Source of the DNA: Labilithrix sp. | Lineage (GTDB): Bacteria; Myxococcota; Polyangia; Polyangiales; Polyangiaceae | Direction: 5' to 3' | DNA: 53,925 bases | Assembly: GCA_028287035.1 (NCBI GenBank) | Contig: JAQBQL010000147.1 | Coordinates: 1 to 53,925 of the forward strand | Part shown: positions 1,846-48,136 of the stretch, piece by piece | How positions within the stretch are numbered: position 1 is the stretch's first letter | Layout: the number at the start of each line of letters is the position of its first letter | Notes under the pieces: generated by a model | The model's database searches: none | What the model was told of the DNA's origin: nothing | What the model saw: only the letters and a program-made list of their open reading frames with translations | Made by a program: the position numbers and the translations under genes

Positions 1846-3432
1846 ATGATCTTGCGCTCCCTTGCGTCCCGGCTCGCTGCAGGTGGCGCCGTCGTGACGA
1901 GCCTCCTCGTCTGCTCTCCCGCGACCGCGCAACCGACCGGTACCCCCGGCGGCCCGCCCCCTGCCTCGGCCGCGCCCGGCGACCCGAAGCCGTCCCACGA
2001 AGAGGCGGCCGCCGCCGAACGCGCGAAGGACGAGGCGACGGAGAAGAAGGAAGAGGACGACAAGAAGGCGGACGAGAAGAAGGACGACAAGAAGAAGGAC
2101 GACGAAAAGAAGAAGAAGGACGATGACGACGTCGTCCTGAACGGCGCGCCGCCGAAGGAGCAGGACGAGCGCAAGCCGATGGACTACGGCGGTCCGCCGC
2201 GCGAGACCGACGCCGGCGACGTCCTCGTGTGGCCGGCCCGGGTGGTCCTCTTCCCGCTCTTCATCGTCAACGACATCATCCTGCGGCGGCCGCTCGGGGC
2301 GCTCGTGAAGGCCGCGGAGTCCGGGCAGTGGATCGAGGAGGTGACGAGCTTCTTCACCTTCGGCGAACGCAAGCAGATCGTCGTCTTCCCGTCCGCGCTC
2401 TTCGACTTCGGCCTGAAGCCGAGCGTGGGCTTCAACGCCTCGTGGAAGTACTTCGGAGCCGAGCACAACACGGCGCGCCTGCACTTCGGCACCTGGGGCC
2501 CGAACTGGATCTCGGTGAAGGGCAGCGACACCTACGATCTGTCGAAGACCCAGCGCGTCTACTTCGAGGGCTCGCTCGTGCGGCGCCGTGACAATCCGTA
2601 CTTCGGATACGGGCCGCGGAGCACGCAGGACGACCGCGCTCGCTACCAGTCGACCGCGAGCGAGCTCGCCCTCGGCTACACGCACGACTTCTGGCGCTCG
2701 AGCACCTTCGCCGCGCGGGCCGGCTCGCGCACGCTGCTCTTCCAGGAGGGCACGTGCTGCGGCGAGGACGCGGTCGAGACCGCGCTCGAGCAACATCGCT
2801 TCACCGCGCCAGGCTACGGGCGCGGCTACGTGGCCGGCTTCCAGCGCGTCGACTTCGAGATCGACTCGCGAAGGCCCCGGCCGGAGCCGGGCGGCGGCAT
2901 CCGCGTCGAGGCTCACGAGGAGACCGTGTTCCCCGTCGATGCCGAGACGGGCGCGGCGAAGCGAAGCTGGGTCAAGTACGGCGGCTCGGTGGGCGCCGCG
3001 GTCGATCTCACCGGAACCCAGCGCGTGCTCGGCCTCACGCTCGCGACCGAGCTCATCGACCCCATCCAGGGCAGTGGCAACGACATCCCGTTCCCCGATC
3101 AGGTCACGCTCGGCGGCGACAACTGGATGCCAGGCTACCTCCGCGGCCGCCTGTACGGCCGCAGCTCGGTGGTCGGACAGCTCCAGTATCGCTGGCCCAT
3201 CTGGGTCTTCCTCGATGGCGTCGTGCACGCCGCGCTCGGCAACGTCTACGGCGCCGGGTACGAGGGGTTCGACGTGAAGTCGAGCCGCCTCAGCACCGGC
3301 CTCGGTGTCCGCTCGAACGGCGAACGTGACTCGGGCTTCGAGCTCCTCTTCGCCATCGGCAGCGATCCCCTCGACGAGGGCTTCGCCGTCTCCTCCTTCC
3401 GCCTCGTCTTCGGGTCCCATCATGGCTTCTGA
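1846..3432 (+). CDS. BamA/TamA-like outer membrane beta-barrel protein
   Basis: Predicted 528-residue outer-membrane protein. The ATG at 1846 gives a standard signal peptide ending ATA-Q near residue 28; an in-frame GTG at 1834 is less convincing. Residues about 45-110 are an extremely Lys/Glu/Asp-rich, probably coiled or disordered segment. The rest has alternating aromatic beta-strand patterns, with repeated strands such as KYFGAEHNTARLHFG and YFEGSLVRRRDNPYFGYG, in the style of Omp85/bacterial surface antigen barrels. The chain ends in Phe, as barrels recognised by the BAM machinery usually do. No clear POTRA domain is seen, so this is not a complete BamA. It overlaps the downstream lipoprotein gene by 11 bp, which suggests the two products work together. 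Confidence 0.7.
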   Translation: MILRSLASRLAAGGAVVTSLLVCSPATAQPTGTPGGPPPASAAPGDPKPSHEEAAAAERAKDEATEKKEEDDKKADEKKDDKKKDDEKKKKDDDDVVLNGAPPKEQDERKPMDYGGPPRETDAGDVLVWPARVVLFPLFIVNDIILRRPLGALVKAAESGQWIEEVTSFFTFGERKQIVVFPSALFDFGLKPSVGFNASWKYFGAEHNTARLHFGTWGPNWISVKGSDTYDLSKTQRVYFEGSLVRRRDNPYFGYGPRSTQDDRARYQSTASELALGYTHDFWRSSTFAARAGSRTLLFQEGTCCGEDAVETALEQHRFTAPGYGRGYVAGFQRVDFEIDSRRPRPEPGGGIRVEAHEETVFPVDAETGAAKRSWVKYGGSVGAAVDLTGTQRVLGLTLATELIDPIQGSGNDIPFPDQVTLGGDNWMPGYLRGRLYGRSSVVGQLQYRWPIWVFLDGVVHAALGNVYGAGYEGFDVKSSRLSTGLGVRSNGERDSGFELLFAIGSDPLDEGFAVSSFRLVFGSHHGF

Positions 3433-5188
3433 CCGCAGCTCCGGACGCCGTCGTCGGCTCTCCTCTCTCCTCCTCGCGTGCGCCGCGATCGCCGGCACCG
3501 CGGCCTGCGCGCACGACGATCCGCGCCGGTTTCGCCTGCGGGCGCCGGTCACGCGCGATCAGGATCTCGAGCCCTTCAACATCGAGTGCAAGGCCGAGAA
3601 GGGCGACGTGAAGAAGTGCGCGCCCGAGATCTACGAGTCGTCGTTCGCGTGGGACGCCGCGGACAACTCGGTGTTCCGTCCCGCGTCGGATGCGCTTCTC
3701 CTGAAGCGCGCCGGTGACGCACGGAACGTCAACGCGTTCGACGAGGTGCCCGACTCGAGCTGGTTCACGAACCGCATCGGCCAGAAGCCGCTCACCCCCG
3801 ACGAGGTCGAGGCGGGCTTCTGCAAGCCGGGAGTGATGCTCGATCCCGAGGCGGAGGACGGCAGCTGGGTCATCGACCACGGCAAGGACAACGGTGCGAA
3901 TCCTGGCTTCCGCGTGAAGTTCAAGGACACCAAGTTCATGATGAAGACGGACGAGAGCCAGGGCGAGCGCGCCACGGCCGCGACCGCCATGGCGACTCGT
4001 TTCTACTACGCCGCAGGCTGGTGGGCTCCGTGCGACGCGGTCGTCTACTTCCGTCGCGAGCTGCTCAAGCTGAAGCCCGGGCTCACGATCAAGGCGAACG
4101 TCGGGCCTCCGAAGAAGTTCGACGAGGCGCTTCTCGAGAAGATCCTCGAGAAGGTTCCGCGACGCGGAAACCTGCTCCGCGCGACGGCCTCGCGATGGCT
4201 GCCCGGCGCCCCGATGGGGCCGTTCATGTACGAGGGCCGGCGTGACGACGACCCGGGCGACGTCATCCCGCACGAGCACCGCCGCGACCTCCGCGGGGCG
4301 CGGGTCATCGCCGCCTGGCTGAACCACTTCGACTCGCGCGAGCAGAACTCGATGATCACCTGGGAGCCGACCGACAAGTCGCAGCCCTGGCGCGGCGTCA
4401 CGAGGCACTGGTACATCGACCTCGGCGATTGCTTCGGCAGCGAGTGGGCGGTCGACGCGATGTCGAAGCGGCTCGGGTACTCGTACCTGCTCGACTTCCG
4501 CTACATCCTGCAGGACTTCGCGTCGCTCGGGGCCATCTCGCGCCCGTGGGACGACAACGTGAAGCGCACGCCCGGCTTCGAGGACTACGGCTACTTCGGC
4601 GCGCGGTGGTTCGACCCCGACGAATGGAAGGGCGAGTACCCGAATCCGGCGTTCCAGAACATGCAGGAGGGCGACGCGGCGTGGGCGGCGCGCATCATCG
4701 CGCGCTTCGGCCCCGAGCACGTGATGGCGGCGCTGAAGGCCGGCGACCTCACGAAGCCGGAGGACACGAGGTTTCTCTTCGAGATCCTCATGCAGCGTCA
4801 GCACATCATCCTTGCGCGTTACTTCGCGAAGGTCTCTCCGCTGAGCGACGCGCGCCTCGAGGGCGACAACCTCTGCGCGACCGATCTCGCGCGGGCGACG
4901 AACACCTATCCGGGCGGCTCGTTCCGCTACCTGTCGCAGGTGCTCCGCGGCACGACCGACACAGACAAGGCGGAGCACCCGGCGGTCATGACGCAGGGCC
5001 AGGCGGGCCGCGTGTGCATCCCCGTCCCCTCGCGGCAGCCCGATGGCGGCGCGAGCGACGACGACAAGAGCCGCTACGTCACGGTGCAGGTCTCGAACGG
5101 CGCCTCGAAGGGCCCGCTCGTCGCCCACCTGTACGACCTCGGCCCGAAGCGGGGCCTGCAGCTGGTCGCCCTCGAGCGCCCCGAGTAG
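3422..5188 (+). CDS. Large lipoprotein of unknown function paired with the barrel protein
   Basis: 588-residue protein. The ATG at 3422 overlaps the end of the barrel gene and gives a strong lipoprotein signal: basic n-region SSGRRRRL, hydrophobic core, then GTAAC with Cys29. An open extension upstream to 3305 lies inside the barrel gene and lacks a signal sequence, so it is rejected. The mature chain is soluble in character with no membrane segments. I see no catalytic motif that I can name with confidence. The spacing NHFDSREQNSM followed later by YIDLGDCFGS resembles the catalytic and metal-binding loops of kinase-like phosphotransferases, but this is weak. Co-translation with an outer-membrane barrel suggests a periplasmic or outer-membrane partner. 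Confidence 0.75.
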   Translation: MASDRSSGRRRRLSSLLLACAAIAGTAACAHDDPRRFRLRAPVTRDQDLEPFNIECKAEKGDVKKCAPEIYESSFAWDAADNSVFRPASDALLLKRAGDARNVNAFDEVPDSSWFTNRIGQKPLTPDEVEAGFCKPGVMLDPEAEDGSWVIDHGKDNGANPGFRVKFKDTKFMMKTDESQGERATAATAMATRFYYAAGWWAPCDAVVYFRRELLKLKPGLTIKANVGPPKKFDEALLEKILEKVPRRGNLLRATASRWLPGAPMGPFMYEGRRDDDPGDVIPHEHRRDLRGARVIAAWLNHFDSREQNSMITWEPTDKSQPWRGVTRHWYIDLGDCFGSEWAVDAMSKRLGYSYLLDFRYILQDFASLGAISRPWDDNVKRTPGFEDYGYFGARWFDPDEWKGEYPNPAFQNMQEGDAAWAARIIARFGPEHVMAALKAGDLTKPEDTRFLFEILMQRQHIILARYFAKVSPLSDARLEGDNLCATDLARATNTYPGGSFRYLSQVLRGTTDTDKAEHPAVMTQGQAGRVCIPVPSRQPDGGASDDDKSRYVTVQVSNGASKGPLVAHLYDLGPKRGLQLVALERPE

Positions 5189-5225
5189 ACGGCGCTCGCG
5201 CCGCATGGGCGCGTGGCGGAGCGGG

Positions 5226-5345
5226 GGGAAATCGTTCGGATCCCCCTCCCATTCCGCAGCGACGGAGGGGGTGCGAAGGGCCCAAAGTCGTTCGGATCCC
5301 TGCCGTTCGCCGCGCGCCGCCGCCGTGAAGTCGTTCGGATCCCCC
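5226..5345 (+). repeat. Repeat array 1, left arm: three forward copies of the TCGTTCGGATCC core
   Basis: The core TCGTTCGGATCC occurs at 5232-5243, 5288-5299 and 5331-5342. Each copy is preceded by a purine run (GAAA, AAAG or GAAG) and followed by C-rich sequence. The spacing is 56 then 43 bp. The sequence between the copies is only loosely conserved. The arm starts about 40 bp after the stop codon of the lipoprotein gene. Open frames cross it on both strands, but they have no credible start and contain only repeat-derived residues. Confidence 0.9.
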
Positions 5346-5394
5346 GCCATTCTCGGCGCGTGGCCCCCGTCTCTTCGGCCAGAGCGGCCCGCGC

Positions 5395-5540
5395 GGAAGT
5401 CGAAGGGGGGATCCGAACGACTTTCACCGCCCGACACACGCCGCGCCGCGCCGAAGTCGAGGGGGGATCCGAACGACTTTCGCCGCCCGACACACGCCGG
5501 GGCGCGCGGAAGTCGAGGGGGGATCCGAACGATGCGCGCG
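5395..5540 (-). repeat. Repeat array 1, right arm: three inverted copies, 56-bp period
   Basis: The inverted core GGATCCGAACGA occurs at 5409-5420, 5465-5476 and 5521-5532, spaced exactly 56 bp apart. Here the whole unit is conserved: GAAGTCGA, a G-run, the core, CTTTC, then CCGCCCGACACACGCC. Within a unit, GAAGTCG before the core can pair with CGACTTTC after it, so each full unit can form a small hairpin with the core in its loop. The third unit is cut short after the core. From 5541 to 5690 I see ordinary GC-rich sequence leading to the next start codon. Confidence 0.9.
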
Positions 5541-5690: not shown

Positions 5691-7352
5691 ATGCAGGGGA
5701 ACGGTCGAGGACGCTCGCGGTGGCAGCGGCGGGCGTGGCTTCCCGCGCTCGTGGTCGCCTCGTCAGCATGTGGTGGCGGCGCGAACGGAGATCCGTCCGC
5801 GCCCCCGCCCGCAGCGCCGCCTGCCGCGCCGGATGCGGGCGCGATGACGACCTTCTCGCCGGACCCGACCGCGATCGGGATCCGGCGGCTGAGCGGCGCC
5901 GCGTACGACAACACCGTCCGCGATCTGATCGGGACGACGGCGCGGTTCGCCGCGACGTTCCCCGACGACGAGCCCGAGCCGCCCAGCACCAACGTGCCCG
6001 ACGCGCTGACGCTCGGGCCGCGCCTCCGCGCAGCCTACGACGCCGCCGCCGACCAGCTCGCCGGCGAGGCTCTGCAGGCGCCGCGCGTGATGATCTGTGA
6101 TCCCGTCCAGCTCGGGACCGACGAGTGCGCCACGAAGATCCTGGCGCGCTTCGTCACGCGGGCATGGCGCAGGCCGGCCGCAGCGGGCGAGGTCGAGCGC
6201 CTCGTGCAGGGCGTCCACGACGCGGCGGCCAATGGCGCTTGCTTCACGGAGGGGCTCCGCGCAGCGCTGAAGTCGACCCTCGTGTCCGACAGCTTCCTCT
6301 TCCGCATCGAGCGCGATCCGGATCCGACCTCCAACGCGATCCATCCGGTGAGCGAATTCGAGCTGGCGAGCCGCCTCTCCTACTTCCTGTGGAGCAGCAT
6401 GCCGGACGACGCGCTCTTCACCTACGCGGAGGCGGGCCGGCTCTCGCAGCCTGCCACCTTCGACCGTCAGGTCACGCGGATGCTGGCCGATCCGCGGGCG
6501 GCCGGCCTCGCGGAGGGTCTCGCCCGCGAGTGGCTGCTCCGCGCGCTCCCGCACGCCGCGCCGGACGCGGCGCTCTTCCCGACCTTCGACGACGAGCTGC
6601 GTGCCTCGATGGAGGCGGAGACGACCGACCTCCTCACCACGTTCCTGCTCGAGGACCGGAGCTTCCTCGATGTCCTCGATGCGCCGTTCACGTCGCTCGA
6701 CGGGCGGCTCGCCGAGCACTACGGCATCCCCGGCATCGTCGGCCCGCGGCGGATGCGCATCCCGCTGTGGGCCGCGACCCACCGCGGAGGCCTGCTCACC
6801 CATGCGAGCGTCCTCACGATGACCGCGCTGCCCGAGCGTACGTCGCCGGCGCAGCGCGGCGCGTGGGTCAACGCGGAGCTGCTCTGCGCAGCCGACGGCA
6901 CCCAGCCGGGGCTGCACCCCACCCTTCCCGCAAACACCTCCGCCGACGCGACGAGGCGCGCGATGACCGACGCCGCGGCGCACCCGTCGTGCGCATCGTG
7001 TCACGCCACGATCGATCCGCTGGGCTTCCCGCTCGAGCATTACGACGCGGTGGGCCGCTGGCGCGAGGCCGACCAGGGCGTGCCGGTCGACGCGACCGCC
7101 GAAGCTCGCGGAGGCGAGCACCTCGACGGCGCCGCGACGCTGGCGAGCGCCATCAAGAGCGATCCGCGCTTCCCCGCATGCGCTGCCCGGAACCTGTACG
7201 CGCACGCGACCGGTCAGGCGCCGCGACCTTCCGACGAGCCGGAGCTCGCCGGGCTGACGGCCACGTTCGTGCATGGAGGCCATCGCATGCGCGACCTCGT
7301 CATCGGCATCGTCCACAGCGACGGATTCTTGACGCGGCACGGCGGCACGTAG
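5691..7352 (+). CDS. DUF1592/DUF1588/DUF1585-type secreted heme lipoprotein
   Basis: 553-residue lipoprotein of the multi-domain family common in Planctomycetes and myxobacteria. The ATG at 5691 gives a signal ending ASSAC with Cys27. The characteristic blocks follow in order: GIRRLSGAAYDNTVRDLIG (DUF1587-like), FVTRAWRRPA (DUF1595-like), ELASRLSYFLWSSMPDD (DUF1592), HASVLTMTALPERTSPAQRG with ASCHATIDPLGFPLEHYD (DUF1588), and a terminal segment with CAARNLYAHATGQ and MRDLVIGIVHSDGF (DUF1585). The motif C434-A-S-C437-H438 is a canonical covalent heme c site. Biochemical function is unproven in this family. It is the first gene of a four-gene operon and lies directly behind repeat array 1. A longer open frame reaching back to 5043 runs through the array and is not used. 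Confidence 0.85.
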   Translation: MQGNGRGRSRWQRRAWLPALVVASSACGGGANGDPSAPPPAAPPAAPDAGAMTTFSPDPTAIGIRRLSGAAYDNTVRDLIGTTARFAATFPDDEPEPPSTNVPDALTLGPRLRAAYDAAADQLAGEALQAPRVMICDPVQLGTDECATKILARFVTRAWRRPAAAGEVERLVQGVHDAAANGACFTEGLRAALKSTLVSDSFLFRIERDPDPTSNAIHPVSEFELASRLSYFLWSSMPDDALFTYAEAGRLSQPATFDRQVTRMLADPRAAGLAEGLAREWLLRALPHAAPDAALFPTFDDELRASMEAETTDLLTTFLLEDRSFLDVLDAPFTSLDGRLAEHYGIPGIVGPRRMRIPLWAATHRGGLLTHASVLTMTALPERTSPAQRGAWVNAELLCAADGTQPGLHPTLPANTSADATRRAMTDAAAHPSCASCHATIDPLGFPLEHYDAVGRWREADQGVPVDATAEARGGEHLDGAATLASAIKSDPRFPACAARNLYAHATGQAPRPSDEPELAGLTATFVHGGHRMRDLVIGIVHSDGFLTRHGGT

Positions 7353-16592: not shown

Positions 16593-16617
16593 CGGTCCGT
16601 CTACCGTGCGATCTGCC

Positions 16618-17130
16618 ATGGCAAATCCCACTGCGACCCTCGAAACCTCGCTCGGAAACATCGAAATCGAGCTGTTCGTCGACCAGATGCCGGTGACGGC
16701 CGGCAACTTCGTGAAGCTCGCCAAGAGCGGCTTCTACGACGGCCTGCACTTCCACCGCGTCATCAACGGCTTCATGCTCCAGTTCGGCTGCCCGCACAGC
16801 AAGGACCCGAAGAGCCCGCGCGCCGGCACCGGCGACAGCCCCGAGGGCACCATCAAGGACGAGCACACCGCGAAGCTCTCGAACGAGCCCGGCACGCTCT
16901 CGATGGCGAACACCGGCCGGCCGAACAGCGGCTCGTGTCAGTTCTTCATCAACACGGTCCACAACTCGTACCTCGACTGGTTCTCGCCGGGCGCCTCGAA
17001 GCACCCGGTCTTCGGCAAGATCACGTCCGGCATGGACGTCGTGAAGAAGATCGAGACGACGAAGACGGACGCGGGCGACCGCCCCCTCACGCCCGTCAAG
17101 ATGAACAAGGTCACCGTCCACGAGTCCTAA
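16618..17130 (+). CDS. Cytoplasmic cyclophilin-type peptidylprolyl isomerase
   Basis: 170-residue single-domain cyclophilin that catalyses cis/trans isomerisation of Xaa-Pro bonds. It has no signal peptide, so it acts in the cytoplasm. Typical motifs are present in order: LGNIEIELF at the start, [28 protein letters not shown] with the catalytic Arg region, [19 protein letters not shown], and [17 protein letters not shown]. Length matches bacterial PpiB-type enzymes. The ATG at 16618 is chosen; an upstream GTG at 16606 adds four residues. It sits between the AgmX-domain gene and the FHA-GGDEF gene, but nothing specific links them functionally. Confidence 0.93.
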
Positions 17131-21789: not shown

Positions 21790-23247
21790 ATGTCCACCGT
21801 CCGTCCCGGCGATGTGCTCGCGGGCAAGTACCGCGTCGAGCGCGTACTCGGGAGCGGCGGCATGGGCTACGTGGTGGCGGCACGTCACCTCCAGCTGGAT
21901 CAGCTGGTCGCGATGAAGTTCCTCCGCAAGGGAGGCAGCCAGCTCGACGAGACCGAGGCGACGGGCCGCTTCCTCCGCGAGGCGAAGGCCGTGGTGCGCC
22001 TCAAGGACGAGCACGTCGCGCGCGTGTTCGATGTCGGCACGCTCGAAGGCGGCGAGCCGTACATCGTCATGGAATACCTGGACGGGCAGGACCTCTCGGC
22101 TCTGACGAAGGCGCGCGGGGCGCTGCCGGTCCAGGAGGCGGTCGATTACATCCTCCAGTCGTGCGAGGCGCTGGCCGAGGCGCACAGCCTCGGCATCGTC
22201 CATCGCGACGTGAAGCTCGCGAACCTCTTCGTGACGCGCGGTCATGCCGGGTCGCCGCTCGTGAAGGTGCTCGACTTCGGCATCTCGAAGGTGAATCCGT
22301 TCGGCGAGTCCGAGCACGAGATGACGCGCACCTCGTCGATGCTCGGCAGCCCGCGGTTCATGTCGCCCGAGCAGATGCGCGACCCCCGGACCGTCGATCC
22401 GCGCAGCGATATCTGGTCGCTCGGCGTGGTGCTCTACCGGCTCGTGTCGGCCCGGCCGCCGTTCGAGGCCGACACGCTGGGACGCCTGCTCACGATGGTC
22501 ATGCACGAGGCGCCCGATCCGCTCGCCATGGTGCGTCCGGATCTTCCGCCCGGCTTCTCGGAGACGGTCGGTCGCTGCCTCGAGAAGGATCCCGCCTACC
22601 GGTATCCGAACGTCGCGGAGCTCGCGTACGCGCTCGCGCCGTATGCCGCCGACCCGGTCCGCGCTCGCGCCGCTGCCGATCGCGCCGCCGGCACGCTGAA
22701 CCTCGCGCAGCTTCCGCGCTCCGGCGAGATCGCCTATCCGCGGTCGCAGCACGGCAGCGGGAGCGTCTCGCTGCCGGCCGGCCAGAGCGACACGGGGACG
22801 GCGGCGCCTTGGGTCGGCACGCACGGCGAGGGCCGGCGCGACCCGCGCAACGTGGTCATCTGGGCGGCGACCGCCCTCGCCGCGCTCGCGGGCGTCATCC
22901 TGATCGCCGTGGCGCTCACGCGTCACCCGGCGCGGCCAGCGGCGGCCGGCCAGGGCGCCGATCCCGTCGCGGTCGTGAACGCGCCCACCGCGGTCGCCAA
23001 CCCCGGCGGCGCGCTCGTCGATGCGGCGGCGGGCGGGGCCTTCGACGACCCGAACGGCGCGGCCCTGACGCCCCTCACGTCGCCTTCGCTCCTGCCCAGG
23101 GCGCCCGCCGCGCCGGTCGACACGGGTCGCTCGCGCGCCGCCGCCGTCGGCAGCGGTGGCCGGAAGGGTCGACCCGCGGCAGCCCACGACCCCGCCGCCC
23201 CGACCGCGAAGAGCGCCGGCGACGGAATTCCGTCTACCCGAGACTGA
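21790..23247 (+). CDS. Transmembrane Ser/Thr protein kinase
   Basis: 485 residues. The ATG at 21790 (MSTVRPGDVL) starts just ahead of the kinase domain. The catalytic set is complete: glycine loop GSGGMG, Lys43, H138-R-D140 with KLAN, D162-F-G and a SPEQ motif in place of APE. The domain ends near residue 290. A linker of about 65 residues leads to a single transmembrane helix (about 355-378), then an Ala/Gly/Pro-rich extracytoplasmic tail of about 105 residues without a recognised sensor domain. It is the first gene of a run with the TPR/PEGA-like and RCC1 genes. Targets are unknown; the FHA proteins of the cell are candidates. Confidence 0.93.
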   Translation: MSTVRPGDVLAGKYRVERVLGSGGMGYVVAARHLQLDQLVAMKFLRKGGSQLDETEATGRFLREAKAVVRLKDEHVARVFDVGTLEGGEPYIVMEYLDGQDLSALTKARGALPVQEAVDYILQSCEALAEAHSLGIVHRDVKLANLFVTRGHAGSPLVKVLDFGISKVNPFGESEHEMTRTSSMLGSPRFMSPEQMRDPRTVDPRSDIWSLGVVLYRLVSARPPFEADTLGRLLTMVMHEAPDPLAMVRPDLPPGFSETVGRCLEKDPAYRYPNVAELAYALAPYAADPVRARAAADRAAGTLNLAQLPRSGEIAYPRSQHGSGSVSLPAGQSDTGTAAPWVGTHGEGRRDPRNVVIWAATALAALAGVILIAVALTRHPARPAAAGQGADPVAVVNAPTAVANPGGALVDAAAGGAFDDPNGAALTPLTSPSLLPRAPAAPVDTGRSRAAAVGSGGRKGRPAAAHDPAAPTAKSAGDGIPSTRD

Positions 23248-23272
23248 CCTTCTGGGTGAGACTCGGAGCGGA

Positions 23273-24268
23273 ATGCTTGGCAAGGCCCGCGCTCTCGCGA
23301 TGATCCTCTCGGCCTCTGTCTTCGCCGGCGTCGTCGGGCACGCCGGCGACGCGTGGGCCGAGGCGAGCGAGAGCCAGTCGGCCGCCGCGGAGTCGCTCTT
23401 CCAGGAAGCCCGCAAGCTGATGGACGCGAAGCGCTACGGCGAGGCGTGCCCGAAGCTCGCCGCCAGCCACAAGCTGGCGCCGGCGGTCGGCACGCTGCTG
23501 AACCTCGCCGACTGCTACGAGCGGAACAACCAGCTCGCCAGCGCCTGGGTGCGCTTCCACGAGGCGGTCGGGCTGGCGCAGCGCCTGGGCCGACCCGACC
23601 GCGAGAAGACCGCCCGTGACCGCGCCGACAAGCTGGAGCCGCGGCTGCTCAGGCTCACCATCAACGCGAAGGATCCGTCCGTCGAGGTGAAGCTCGATGG
23701 CACCGCGCTCGACGCGGCGGCGCTCGGCACCGCGGTGCCCGTCGATCCCGGCAAGCACACCGTCGACGCGTCGGCGAAGGGCAAGAAGCCGTACGCGACG
23801 AGCGTCGACGTCAGCGAGCGATCGCGGAGCCCCTCGGTGGACATCCCGGCGCTCGAGATCGATCCCGACCATCCCGAGAAGGCGCCGGTGGTTGCCGCGA
23901 CCGAGGAGCCCGCGCGGAGCCCGGATCCCCCGCGCGGTGACGACGGCGGGACGCAGCGCCTGCTCGGCGGCGTGGCGATGGGCGTCGGCGGCGTCGGCCT
24001 CGTGCTCGGCACGATCTACGGCCTGCGCACGTCGTCGAAGTGGTCCGAGGCGCAGGACCACTGCACCGGCACCGATTGCGACCGCACCGGCGTCGAGCTC
24101 GCGACCTCGGCGAAGAACGCCGGCACGGTCTCGACGATCACCTTCATCGCCGGCGGCGTCTTCGTCGCGGGCGGCGCGATCCTCTTCTTCACGGCGCCGA
24201 GCGGCAAGAAGAGCGCCGCGCAGGTGGGCGTCGGTCCCGGGTCGATCCAGCTCCGCGGAACGTTCTGA
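23273..24268 (+). CDS. TPR/PEGA-like envelope protein
   Basis: 331 residues with a signal peptide ending DAWA-E near residue 30. Residues 35-115 contain helical TPR-like hairpins (ESLFQEARKLMDAKRYGEAC, then LNLADCYERNNQLASAWVRF). A PEGA-like beta domain follows (VEVKLDGTALDAAALGTAVPVDPGKHTV). Two hydrophobic helices near the C-terminus (about 229-251 and 286-308) flank a loop with two cysteines (CTGTDC). This architecture recurs next to Ser/Thr kinases in polyangial myxobacteria. It starts 25 bp after the kinase gene with GGAG upstream of the ATG and overlaps the next gene by one base (TGATG). Function unknown; a scaffold in the envelope is the inference. Confidence 0.8.
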   Translation: MLGKARALAMILSASVFAGVVGHAGDAWAEASESQSAAAESLFQEARKLMDAKRYGEACPKLAASHKLAPAVGTLLNLADCYERNNQLASAWVRFHEAVGLAQRLGRPDREKTARDRADKLEPRLLRLTINAKDPSVEVKLDGTALDAAALGTAVPVDPGKHTVDASAKGKKPYATSVDVSERSRSPSVDIPALEIDPDHPEKAPVVAATEEPARSPDPPRGDDGGTQRLLGGVAMGVGGVGLVLGTIYGLRTSSKWSEAQDHCTGTDCDRTGVELATSAKNAGTVSTITFIAGGVFVAGGAILFFTAPSGKKSAAQVGVGPGSIQLRGTF

Positions 24269-37559: not shown

Positions 37560-38123
37560 ATGTCGACCTCGCCGCGCTCGCGCGTCTCGTCCGTCCTCCT
37601 CCTCGGCCTTCTCGTGGTCGCCGGCGCGCCGTTCGGCTGCTCGCGGAGCACGCAGGAGGAGGAGCCCCGGCCGAGCAGCCGCCAGACGCAGCAGCTCGAC
37701 GAGGCGGTGGCATCGGCCGCCCACGCCGCTGCCGCCGCCTCCTCCGCGGCGGTGCTCGCACGGGGCACGGCTCCGCAAGCGTCGACCCAGGCGGCGCCCG
37801 ACGCGATCGCGGCGCAGCACGTCCTCGTCGCGTACAAGGGGGCCGAGCGCGCCCCCAAGGGCGTGACGCGGTCGAAGGACGAGGCAAGGAAGCGCGCCGC
37901 CGAGGTGGTGACGAAGGCGAGGGCCGGCGAGGACTTCAGCAAGCTCGTCGCCGAGTACTCGGACGATCCCGCCGCGAAGGAGCGCCAGGGCAGCCTCGGC
38001 AAGTTCACGCGGGACAAGATGAACAAGGCGTTCAGCGACGCCGCCTTCGCCCTCGGCGTCGACCAGACGAGCGACCCGGTCGAGACGCCGTTCGGGTTCC
38101 ACGTGATCCGCCGGAACCAGTGA
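37560..38123 (+). CDS. Parvulin-type peptidylprolyl isomerase lipoprotein
   Basis: 187-residue periplasmic or surface PPIase. From the ATG at 37560 the signal ends FGC (Cys27). A Gln/Ala-rich spacer leads to the rotamase domain: AQHVLVAYKGAERAPKG, DFSKLVAEYSDDP, RQGSLGKFTRDKM and FGFHVIRR. This matches PrsA/SurA-type parvulin modules, here only one, with no chaperone domain. It is followed after 12 bp by an unknown lipoprotein gene on the same strand. A GTG at 37545 would add five residues ahead of the signal. Confidence 0.88.
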   Translation: MSTSPRSRVSSVLLLGLLVVAGAPFGCSRSTQEEEPRPSSRQTQQLDEAVASAAHAAAAASSAAVLARGTAPQASTQAAPDAIAAQHVLVAYKGAERAPKGVTRSKDEARKRAAEVVTKARAGEDFSKLVAEYSDDPAAKERQGSLGKFTRDKMNKAFSDAAFALGVDQTSDPVETPFGFHVIRRNQ

Positions 38124-45533: not shown

Positions 45534-45630
45534 GCGAGGCGCAAACGGTAGCTCCGTCCTCGACCTTGTCGATTTCAAAGGCGTCTCCGCCGACCTTCTG
45601 GCGCGCGACGTTCGCTGCTAGACGTCGCGG

Positions 45631-46422
45631 ATGCATCCTTCCGTTCGGCGCCTCTTTCCTGCGGCCCTCGGGCTCGCGCTTGCCTCGTTCGTCGCCTGCT
45701 CCGGCAGCTCGACGGCGACGACCACCGGCGGTGATCCTGACGCCGGGAGCGACGCCGGCTCCTCCGGCGACGCGGACGGCTCCGTTTCCGAGGCGGCGCT
45801 GCCGAGCCTCCTGCCGGGCTGCACGCAGGATCCCGGAGCGACGCCGCCGTCGTTCGATCCGAAGTCCGCCGCGGACCCCATCGGCGAGGGCAAGCTCACG
45901 CTCGCGATGGCGCTCGCCGGGTTCCCGTCCGGCGGCGGCACGTTGACCGCGGCGATCGCGACCGAGAAGGGCGTCATCAAGTGCACGCTCGACGAGGCGG
46001 CGGCGCCGATCAGCGTCGCGAACTTCGTCGGCCTCGCCCGCGGCACGCGCCCCTACAAGACGACCGGCGACTGGCAGGTCGGCCGCTTCTACGACGGCCT
46101 CGTGTGGCACCGGGTGATCCCGGGATTCGTCATCCAGGGTGGCGACCCGGAGGGCAGCGGCTTCGGCGGCCCCGGGTTCGACCTGCCGGACGAGAACCAC
46201 GTCGACGAGCCGCTCGGCACCCTGGCGATGGCCGCCTCGAGCAAGGCGAGCGGCAGCCAGTTCTACATCGTGGTCGGGACCGGCCCCGCCGCCGACTACA
46301 ACGTGTTCGGCACGTGCGAGACGGCGACCGCCATCGCCGTCGCGGCCTCGCCGCGCGACGCGAACGACAAGCCGCTCACCAGCGTCCACATGCTGCGCGT
46401 CGAGATCGGCCGCTGCCCCTGA
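45631..46422 (+). CDS. Cyclophilin-type peptidylprolyl isomerase lipoprotein
   Basis: 263 residues. Signal ends FVAC (Cys23), then an Asp/Ala/Ser tether to about residue 55. The cyclophilin domain follows: ISVANFVGLARGTRPYK, FYDGLVWHRVIPGFVIQGGDP with the catalytic Arg, LAMAASSKASGSQFYIV and YNVFGTCE. It therefore acts outside the cytoplasmic membrane on folding or maturation of exported proteins. It is the third PPIase in the window and the second lipid-anchored one. Repeat array 2 begins about 30 bp after its stop. Confidence 0.9.
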   Translation: MHPSVRRLFPAALGLALASFVACSGSSTATTTGGDPDAGSDAGSSGDADGSVSEAALPSLLPGCTQDPGATPPSFDPKSAADPIGEGKLTLAMALAGFPSGGGTLTAAIATEKGVIKCTLDEAAAPISVANFVGLARGTRPYKTTGDWQVGRFYDGLVWHRVIPGFVIQGGDPEGSGFGGPGFDLPDENHVDEPLGTLAMAASSKASGSQFYIVVGTGPAADYNVFGTCETATAIAVAASPRDANDKPLTSVHMLRVEIGRCP

Positions 46423-46452
46423 GCCCCCGGGCGCCGCGGGGCTCGCCAGCGG

Positions 46453-46640
46453 CGAAACTCGTTCGGATCCCTCACGGTCGGCGCGCCCGCCGGCGCCTCG
46501 GGCACCCCAAAACTCGTTCGGATCCCTCACTGTCCGCGCGCTCCCCGGCGCCTCGGGCACCCCCAAACTCGTTCGGATCCCTCACGGTCCGCGCGCTCCC
46601 CGACGCCTCGGGCACCCCCAAACTCGTTCGGATCCCTCAC
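46453..46640 (+). repeat. Repeat array 2, left arm: four forward copies, 55-bp period
   Basis: The core TCGTTCGGATCC occurs at 46459-46470, 46514-46525, 46569-46580 and 46624-46635, each exactly 55 bp apart. The whole unit is conserved in the first three: core, CTCAC, a GTC-GCGCGC-CCCC segment, GCGCCTCGGGCACCCCAAAAC or close variants. The fourth unit keeps only the core and CTCACGGT before the orientation switches. The array lies between two convergent genes. Confidence 0.93.
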
Positions 46641-46669
46641 GGTGCTGCGCGACAGGCGCGCGCCGAGGC

Positions 46670-46970
46670 GATCGACAGGGATCCGAACGAGTTTCGGCGC
46701 CCCGACCCCGCCCGGGTGACGTGGAGATCGACAGGGATCCGAACGAGTTTCGCCGCGCCGAACCCCCCGGGCGACGTGGTGAATCGACAGGGATCCGAAC
46801 GAGTTTCGGCGCGCCGAACCCCGGTGACGTGGGGATCGACAGGGATCCGAACGAGTTTCGGCGCGCCGCCCCCCCCGGGGACGTGGAGAATCGACAGGAA
46901 ACCGAACGAGTTTGCGTGCCTCGGCCCCCCCGCGTGCCGCGAGCATCGAGAGGGGATCCGAACGAGTTTC
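46670..46970 (-). repeat. Repeat array 2, right arm: six inverted copies, about 55-bp period
   Basis: The inverted core GGATCCGAACGA occurs at 46679-46690, 46735-46746, 46791-46802, 46843-46854 and 46954-46965. A degenerate copy, GGAAACCGAACGA, lies at 46897-46909. Start-to-start distances are 56, 56, 52, 54 and 57 bp, and the distance from the last forward core is again 55 bp. Units share ATCGACAG before the core and GTTTCGGCGCGCCGAACCCC after it, then GACGTGG. The flanking text differs from that of the left arm; only the core region is shared. The arm ends about 20 bp before the stop codon of the beta-helix gene. Confidence 0.93.
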
Positions 46971-46987
46971 ACGCGCCCGCCCGGCGC

Positions 46988-48132
<1,145 letters not shown>

Positions 48133-48136
<4 letters not shown>

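Follow-up and report, generated by a model that had tools for sequence, protein, structure and literature searches.

Two Opposed-Arm Tandem Arrays Sharing a Conserved Core Behind Genes of a Labilithrix sp. Contig

Introduction

What is the short repeat that fills most of the space between two convergent genes of a Labilithrix sp. contig, and does such a repeat serve the cell or only itself? The locus lies in a 53,925-nucleotide stretch of contig JAQBQL010000147.1, the whole of which was analysed and is referred to here as the window. Its layout, in which a short core recurs first in one and then in the other orientation, would offer a way into the question if the family proves genome-wide, as opposed tandem arms set the conserved part (the core) apart from the part that changes more freely (the spacer), and the two possibilities could be told apart by comparing arms and arrays.

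Organization of the Arrays

The array between the convergent genes, termed A2 (46455–46970), contains ten copies of the 12-mer TCGTTCGGATCC, nine exact and one, at 46898, with 2 mismatches (TCGTTCGGTTTC); four forward cores are followed by six inverted ones, exactly as the initial annotation had described. The left arm (46455..46651, + strand) carries forward cores at 46459, 46514, 46569 and 46624 in 55-bp steps, and the right arm (46671..46970, − strand) inverted cores at 46679, 46735, 46791, 46843, 46898 (the degenerate copy) and 46954 in 52–56-bp steps. The limits of the switch between them (46652..46670) were taken from Tandem Repeats Finder, which scored the arms as 55–56-bp tandem copies; the left-type spacer text may already stop near 46643. 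Start-to-start steps along the array were 55, 55, 55, 55 (the switch), 56, 56, 52, 55 and 56 bp, a range of 52–56 bp where 52–57 bp had been given. The previously proposed 12-bp core was recovered exactly in nine of the ten copies, but the exact word common to those nine is longer, with 17 bp (AAACTCGTTCGGATCCC). A2 occupies most of the 565-bp gap separating the two genes.

When mismatches were allowed, searching the window brought to light another array belonging to this family, A1 (5228–5532), which had been overlooked in the initial annotation. Its left arm (5228..5342, + strand) holds three forward cores (5232, 5288 and 5331; preceded by G in two of the three) and its right arm (5409..5532, − strand) three inverted cores (5409, 5465 and 5521) in 56-bp steps, the successive intervals being 56, 43, 78 (the switch), 56 and 56 bp. 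The claim that the spacing is kept across the switch point thus holds for A2 (55 bp) but fails for A1, with its 78-bp switch and an additional 43-bp step. The arm order is forward-then-inverted in both arrays, and the same 12-mer occurs in 15 of the 16 copies although the arrays lie 41 kb apart. Immediately before TCG, all ten A2 copies have C and four of the six A1 copies have G, in the left and right arms alike, so that arrays of this family can be described as TCGTTCGG-cored. All 15 exact 12-mers of the window fall into these two clusters, with no exact TCGTTCGGATCC found elsewhere in the window. With up to 2 mismatches, 29 matches to TCGTTCGGATCC were counted against 9.7 expected (sd 2.95; shuffle maximum 17, n = 100); of the 14 inexact ones, 13 were scattered singly outside the arrays and the fourteenth was the degenerate A2 copy. 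The family is known from this contig only.

Conservation of Core and Spacer

The core is asymmetric, conserved and 16–17 bp long. When the four arms were pooled, 9 of 69 core columns varied compared with 61 of 156 spacer columns (p = 8e-5), the signal being carried by the A2 right arm (p = 0.009) and the A1 left arm (p = 2e-5). The A2 left arm also had a core more conserved than its spacer, but with p = 0.16, and the A1 right arm displayed the reverse (4 of 17 core and 4 of 39 spacer columns variable, p = 0.23), because its outermost copy lacks the AAAG end. The two complete units of the A1 left arm have the core in common, while their spacers are identical in 26% of columns when a 13-base gap is counted as mismatch.

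Mean within-arm spacer identity was 90% in the A2 left arm (three units) and 73% in the A2 right arm (five units). The consensus spacers of the two A2 arms aligned no better than shuffled sequences (z = 1.24, p = 0.15), which bears out the earlier statements that spacers are conserved within an arm and differ between arms, and that A2 is not a simple inverted duplication but two arms sharing little other than the core; an inverted duplication of one arm was rejected on the same value. A protein-coding repeat was also rejected, as the 55–56-bp steps shift the reading frame. Between arrays, the spacers of the A1 right arm weakly resembled those of the A2 right arm (z = 3.15, p = 0.005) and the A2 left arm (p = 0.025), in tests that covered 15 pairs, were uncorrected and used consensus or chosen strings. 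With one representative per arm, the values were p = 0.42 for the two A2 arms, 0.09 for A1 right and A2 right, 0.35 for A1 right and A2 left, and, for the A1 arms compared with each other, 0.004. The weak resemblance of the A1 right arm to each of the A2 arms, which loses significance with single representatives, leaves room for a distant common unit. A profile built from one arm recovered the other arm and A1 mainly through the core and the stretch after it.

Flanking Genes

A2 is preceded by a gene for a cyclophilin-type peptidyl-prolyl isomerase (45631..46422, + strand; PF00160), whose stop codon lies 32 nt before the array, and followed by a gene on the − strand (46988..48136) with its stop 17 nt away; searches with the product of the latter against Pfam (E ≤ 0.001) and NCBIfam gave no match, and on reading its start appears rich in Ser and Gly and lipoprotein-like. 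A second cyclophilin gene (PF00160) is present in the 54 kb, at 16606–17130. A1 follows a + strand gene (3305..5188; no Pfam match at E ≤ 1) whose stop codon lies 39 nt before it, and precedes a PSD-type protein gene in the same direction (5691..7352, + strand; DUF1592, 1588, 1595, 1585 and 1587), the start of which, picked by eye, lies 158 nt after the array. Gene calls were obtained from a simple codon-score script and Pfam matches, the start at 5691 being placed by reading.

Both arrays therefore begin 32–39 nt past a stop codon. Of the four gene ends that face the arrays, three are 3' ends, each at a distance of 17–39 nt, and one is a start, 158 nt away. The convergent-gene setting reported for A2 (45631–46422 on the + and 46988–48136 on the − strand) was correct, but it does not extend to A1; as A1 lies between two + strand genes, a position behind a gene, rather than between convergent genes, is the setting common to the two arrays (n = 2). 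Scanning 45600–47200, around A2, detected no intrinsic terminator. A C-rich, G-poor stretch of the kind favored by Rho was found behind the cyclophilin gene only and was absent at the other two 3' ends.

Predicted Folding

Single units folded poorly for the most part: ten single-unit folds gave z values from −2.49 to +1.98, with a median of about −0.3 and eight within −1.5 to +2.0, and the A1 right unit gave z = −2.5 and −1.9 on its two strands, with 4 and 10 of 200 shuffles as good. Whole arrays had fold energies with z = −8.5 (A2) and −5.7 (A1) over 100 shuffles each. In a scan of 134 consecutive 400-nt windows (16 shuffles per window), the array-bearing windows ranked first and second (z = −7.2 at 5201 and −7.1 at 46401), the next lowest value being −4.1 at 37601. 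The segments that follow the arrays in this ranking, 37601–38000 (−4.1) and 23201–23600 (−3.8), lie in or near called genes.

In the predicted minimum-energy folds, identical in pairing scheme on both strands, left-arm cores pair with right-arm cores over 12 of 12 bases each, as L4:R1, L3:R2, L2:R3 and L1:R4 in A2 and as L3:R1, L2:R2 and L1:R3 in A1. The pairing is nested in both arrays and would form a ladder; with four cores facing six in A2, its two outermost right cores have no partner. Flipping the right arm in silico raised the energy by 55 (A2) and 22 (A1) kcal/mol. The ladder follows from the inverted layout and is therefore not independent evidence or proof of function; it describes what the molecule could do and not that it does so. 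Fold prediction is also poor for long G+C-rich sequences.

Search for Relatives

No relatives were found among genome contigs (searched with one tandem-pair pattern), viral contigs, plasmids, phages or predicted proteins. Absence elsewhere is weakly tested by this search, because Myxococcota genomes were covered by one narrow tandem-pair pattern, outside which fall opposed pairs, the A1 variant and looser cores. The genome-contig scan for two core-like words 41–71 bp apart returned two loci, in Arthrobacter and Oceanobacillus. In the former, the two words lie inside a stretch that reads by eye as coding. The latter is a one-way 52-bp array that at first sight has two blocks in common with the A2 right unit, a relationship that was rejected because the likeness is within chance. 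Among 120 genomes from the family of Oceanobacillus, 4 contained the core-like pair and 3 a reversed control word; among 398 from the class, the numbers were 3 and 10, respectively, the two samples overlapping (G001 and several others are in both). When the flanks of the nine inverted cores of the window were compared with the commonest Oceanobacillus flanks, none of 18 comparisons reached p < 0.05 (lowest 0.0525).

On the Oceanobacillus salinisoli contig (L002), the large 52-bp tandem array runs in one direction and extends from a point before 1500 as far as about 3170, with 22 exact CCGAACGAG words and none reversed, behind a gene that on reading resembles uracil phosphoribosyltransferase. 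A CCGAACGAG pair has a 52-bp step in three of the four such family genomes (G001, G034 and G077; 39–69 bp allowed); G001 also has a 51-bp step, and the units of the three otherwise differ.

Viral contigs gave no match for the 12-mer pair or for a further pair pattern. A looser pair matched 7 viral contigs, but their 150-base surroundings comprised two kinds of sequence, neither like A1 or A2. Short degenerate repeats are abundant around the match in IMG/VR L025–L027 and L029, perhaps belonging to a repetitive gene. The 17-mer AAASTCGTTCGGATCCC (C or G at the fourth base) was present in 13 viral contigs (IMG/VR L036–L048), with one copy each; 11 of the 13 are 27–30 kb records, perhaps of one phage group. 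By blastn, 21 plasmid and 4 phage records had matches, all of them short (best E = 0.04). The array read-through, compared with 764 candidates for mispredicted proteins, had no match at E ≤ 10, which is a weak test. Rfam gave no matches at gathering score in the window. A literature search brought up no description of the A1/A2 repeat; the one paper that it listed with the 12-mer concerns vertebrate receptors, and terms relating to myxobacteria, to tandem copies and to convergent copies do not occur in PMC12306157.

Possible Function and Origin

In both arrays, a conserved asymmetric core recurs as a tandem repeat in opposed arms, a short distance past gene 3' ends. The explanation tentatively preferred, plausible though short of probable, is that A1 and A2 are REP/BIME-like post-gene intergenic elements with a foldback layout that act at RNA 3' ends. 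A transcript would run out of the flanking gene into the array, where left-arm cores of the RNA could pair with right-arm cores into a long helix ladder. Such a ladder may shield the mRNA 3' end from 3'–5' exonucleases or define it by offering a double-strand RNase a place to cut, and might dampen read-through, from either side where genes converge. These protection and termination steps are modeled on accounts of REPs, as given in PMC3733652 and PMC2817692. Each array may have grown from one inverted core pair by the addition of core-plus-spacer units within each arm, accompanied by selection on the core. The preferred explanation is weakened by the poor folding of most single units, the lack of an intrinsic terminator in 45600–47200, the two partnerless A2 cores, the presence of a Rho-type stretch at one of three gene 3' ends, and the two of four arms whose core is not significantly better conserved when taken singly.

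Alternatively, the arrays may be neutral or selfish minisatellites, in which template switching generated an inverted word pair and slippage lengthened the arms, the product being tolerated between genes without function. This origin is possible, if on the unlikely side. Tandem arrays of the same period exist elsewhere, such as the one-way 52-bp Oceanobacillus array, and the reversed control word paired about as often as the core word in the family sample (3 vs. 4) and more often in the class sample (10 vs. 3). The arms themselves are 55–56-bp tandem copies by Tandem Repeats Finder, and the spacers of the A2 left and A1 right arms are kept as expected of recent duplication (90%). This origin is countered by the pooled conservation of the core over the spacer, which includes A1 left units with largely unlike spacers, and by the fact that all but one of the 16 copies have an identical 12-mer, with 41 kb between the two arrays.

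The core might instead be kept as the site of a DNA-binding protein (a nucleoid protein, a gyrase-like enzyme, or a fork or polymerase barrier) that works from both sides by means of the inverted arms. An asymmetric conserved core of 16–17 bp has the size of a protein site, steps of 55–56 bp make up 11 of the 14 intervals over A1 and A2, and the orientation is opposed in both arrays. The other three intervals, however, are 52, 43 and 78 bp, so that helical phase is not kept, and no exact copy occurs beyond the arrays in the window; an oriented array of binding sites is regarded as unlikely. The role that the initial annotation had derived from fixed phase and spacing likewise finds little support, given the 78-bp switch and 43-bp step of A1.

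Opposed arms also recall a non-autonomous mobile element of the foldback type, whose outward cores would act as terminal inverted repeats, present in several copies and recognized by a transposase. Each array starts and ends with an outward-facing core, the same architecture occurs twice in 54 kb, and the right-arm spacers of A1 and A2 are weakly alike (the z = 3.15 comparison, one of the 15 uncorrected pair tests). Even so, the ends of the arrays bear no target-site duplication (flank comparison p = 0.63 for A2 and 0.21 for A1) and no exact 4–12-bp repeat within 3 bases, the A2 arms are not recognizable as reverse complements outside the core, and no transposase family was detected by Pfam among 39 distinct translated stretches of the window, which represent part of the gene calls. 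Mobility is accordingly considered quite improbable. That the arrays arose in assembly, for example from a chimeric read that folds back on itself, is scarcely credible: the contig is probably metagenomic, and repeats and fold-back reads are known error sources (PMC6868369 and PMC12870357), but arms produced by such a read would be almost perfect reverse complements of each other, whereas the arm spacers differ and the two arrays are of different sequence.

In a further-reaching reading, which at present is doubtful, Labilithrix-like myxobacteria would possess a dispersed family of two-armed foldback arrays, in which some process keeps the 16–17-bp core identical in both orientations while spacers are replaced in each arm separately. 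Transcripts of the arrays would fold into ladders of paired cores where genes end, and the family would count as a class of bacterial intergenic repeat with a new structure. Should the family be genome-wide, two arrays per 54 kb would correspond to hundreds in a myxobacterial genome of roughly 10 Mb, as extrapolated from these two arrays, and this lineage, whose genomes are large and complex, would have a system comparable to REPs.

Comparison with Known Systems

REP/BIME bundles are the nearest known thing found. According to PMC3733652, most REPs follow coding regions and have convergent or co-directional genes as neighbors, with many in opposed pairs that may fold, and BIMEs are described in PMC2817692 as regularly spaced copies in alternating orientation. 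A1 and A2 resemble the GTAG and CGTC families of REPs, as presented in PMC3733652, in having a short conserved word, an intergenic position mostly behind genes, both orientations and a potential for folding between copies. The intergenic location near gene 3' ends is shared in all three cases (17–39 nt). In contrast to the 20–40-bp imperfect palindrome of a REP, which folds alone, most units fold poorly and the core is asymmetric; orientations do not alternate, but run as four forward and six inverted copies in A2 and three of each in A1; and the terminal GTAG or CGTC tag is lacking. Of the five complete spacers in the A2 right arm, four contain CGTC at one place; it also occurs a single time within the switch of A1, and not beside the other cores, while no GTAG was seen in the A1 and A2 units. 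Because the unit palindrome, the alternation and the tetranucleotide tag are missing, the arrays are not filed as REPs or BIMEs. The previous suggestion of a layout closer to BIMEs than to CRISPR stands in that the arrays are not CRISPR and REP/BIME is nearest, but not as regards hairpin units and alternation. A CRISPR has identical repeats in one direction with unrelated spacers, whereas the A2 spacers are 73–90% alike within arms and the orientation switches.

Other repeats share single aspects of this layout. MIRU-type intergenic minisatellites (VNTR) consist of non-coding tandem units of 50–60 bp between genes, and the head-to-tail units within each arm agree with them; A1 and A2 differ in having two opposed arms and a core kept better than the spacers. 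Inverted DNA-uptake-sequence terminators of Neisseria likewise place inverted copies of a word of about 12 bp behind genes, but as single pairs among very many scattered words, unlike the exact A1/A2 word, which is confined in the window to the two arrays. The FB and Galileo foldback transposons of Drosophila possess opposed arms of tandem sub-repeats, as do A1 and A2; they are eukaryotic, much larger and flanked by target-site duplications, which foldback and MITE-like elements have at their ends and A1 and A2 do not. A1 and A2 resemble known bacterial intergenic repeats, but with an unusual layout.
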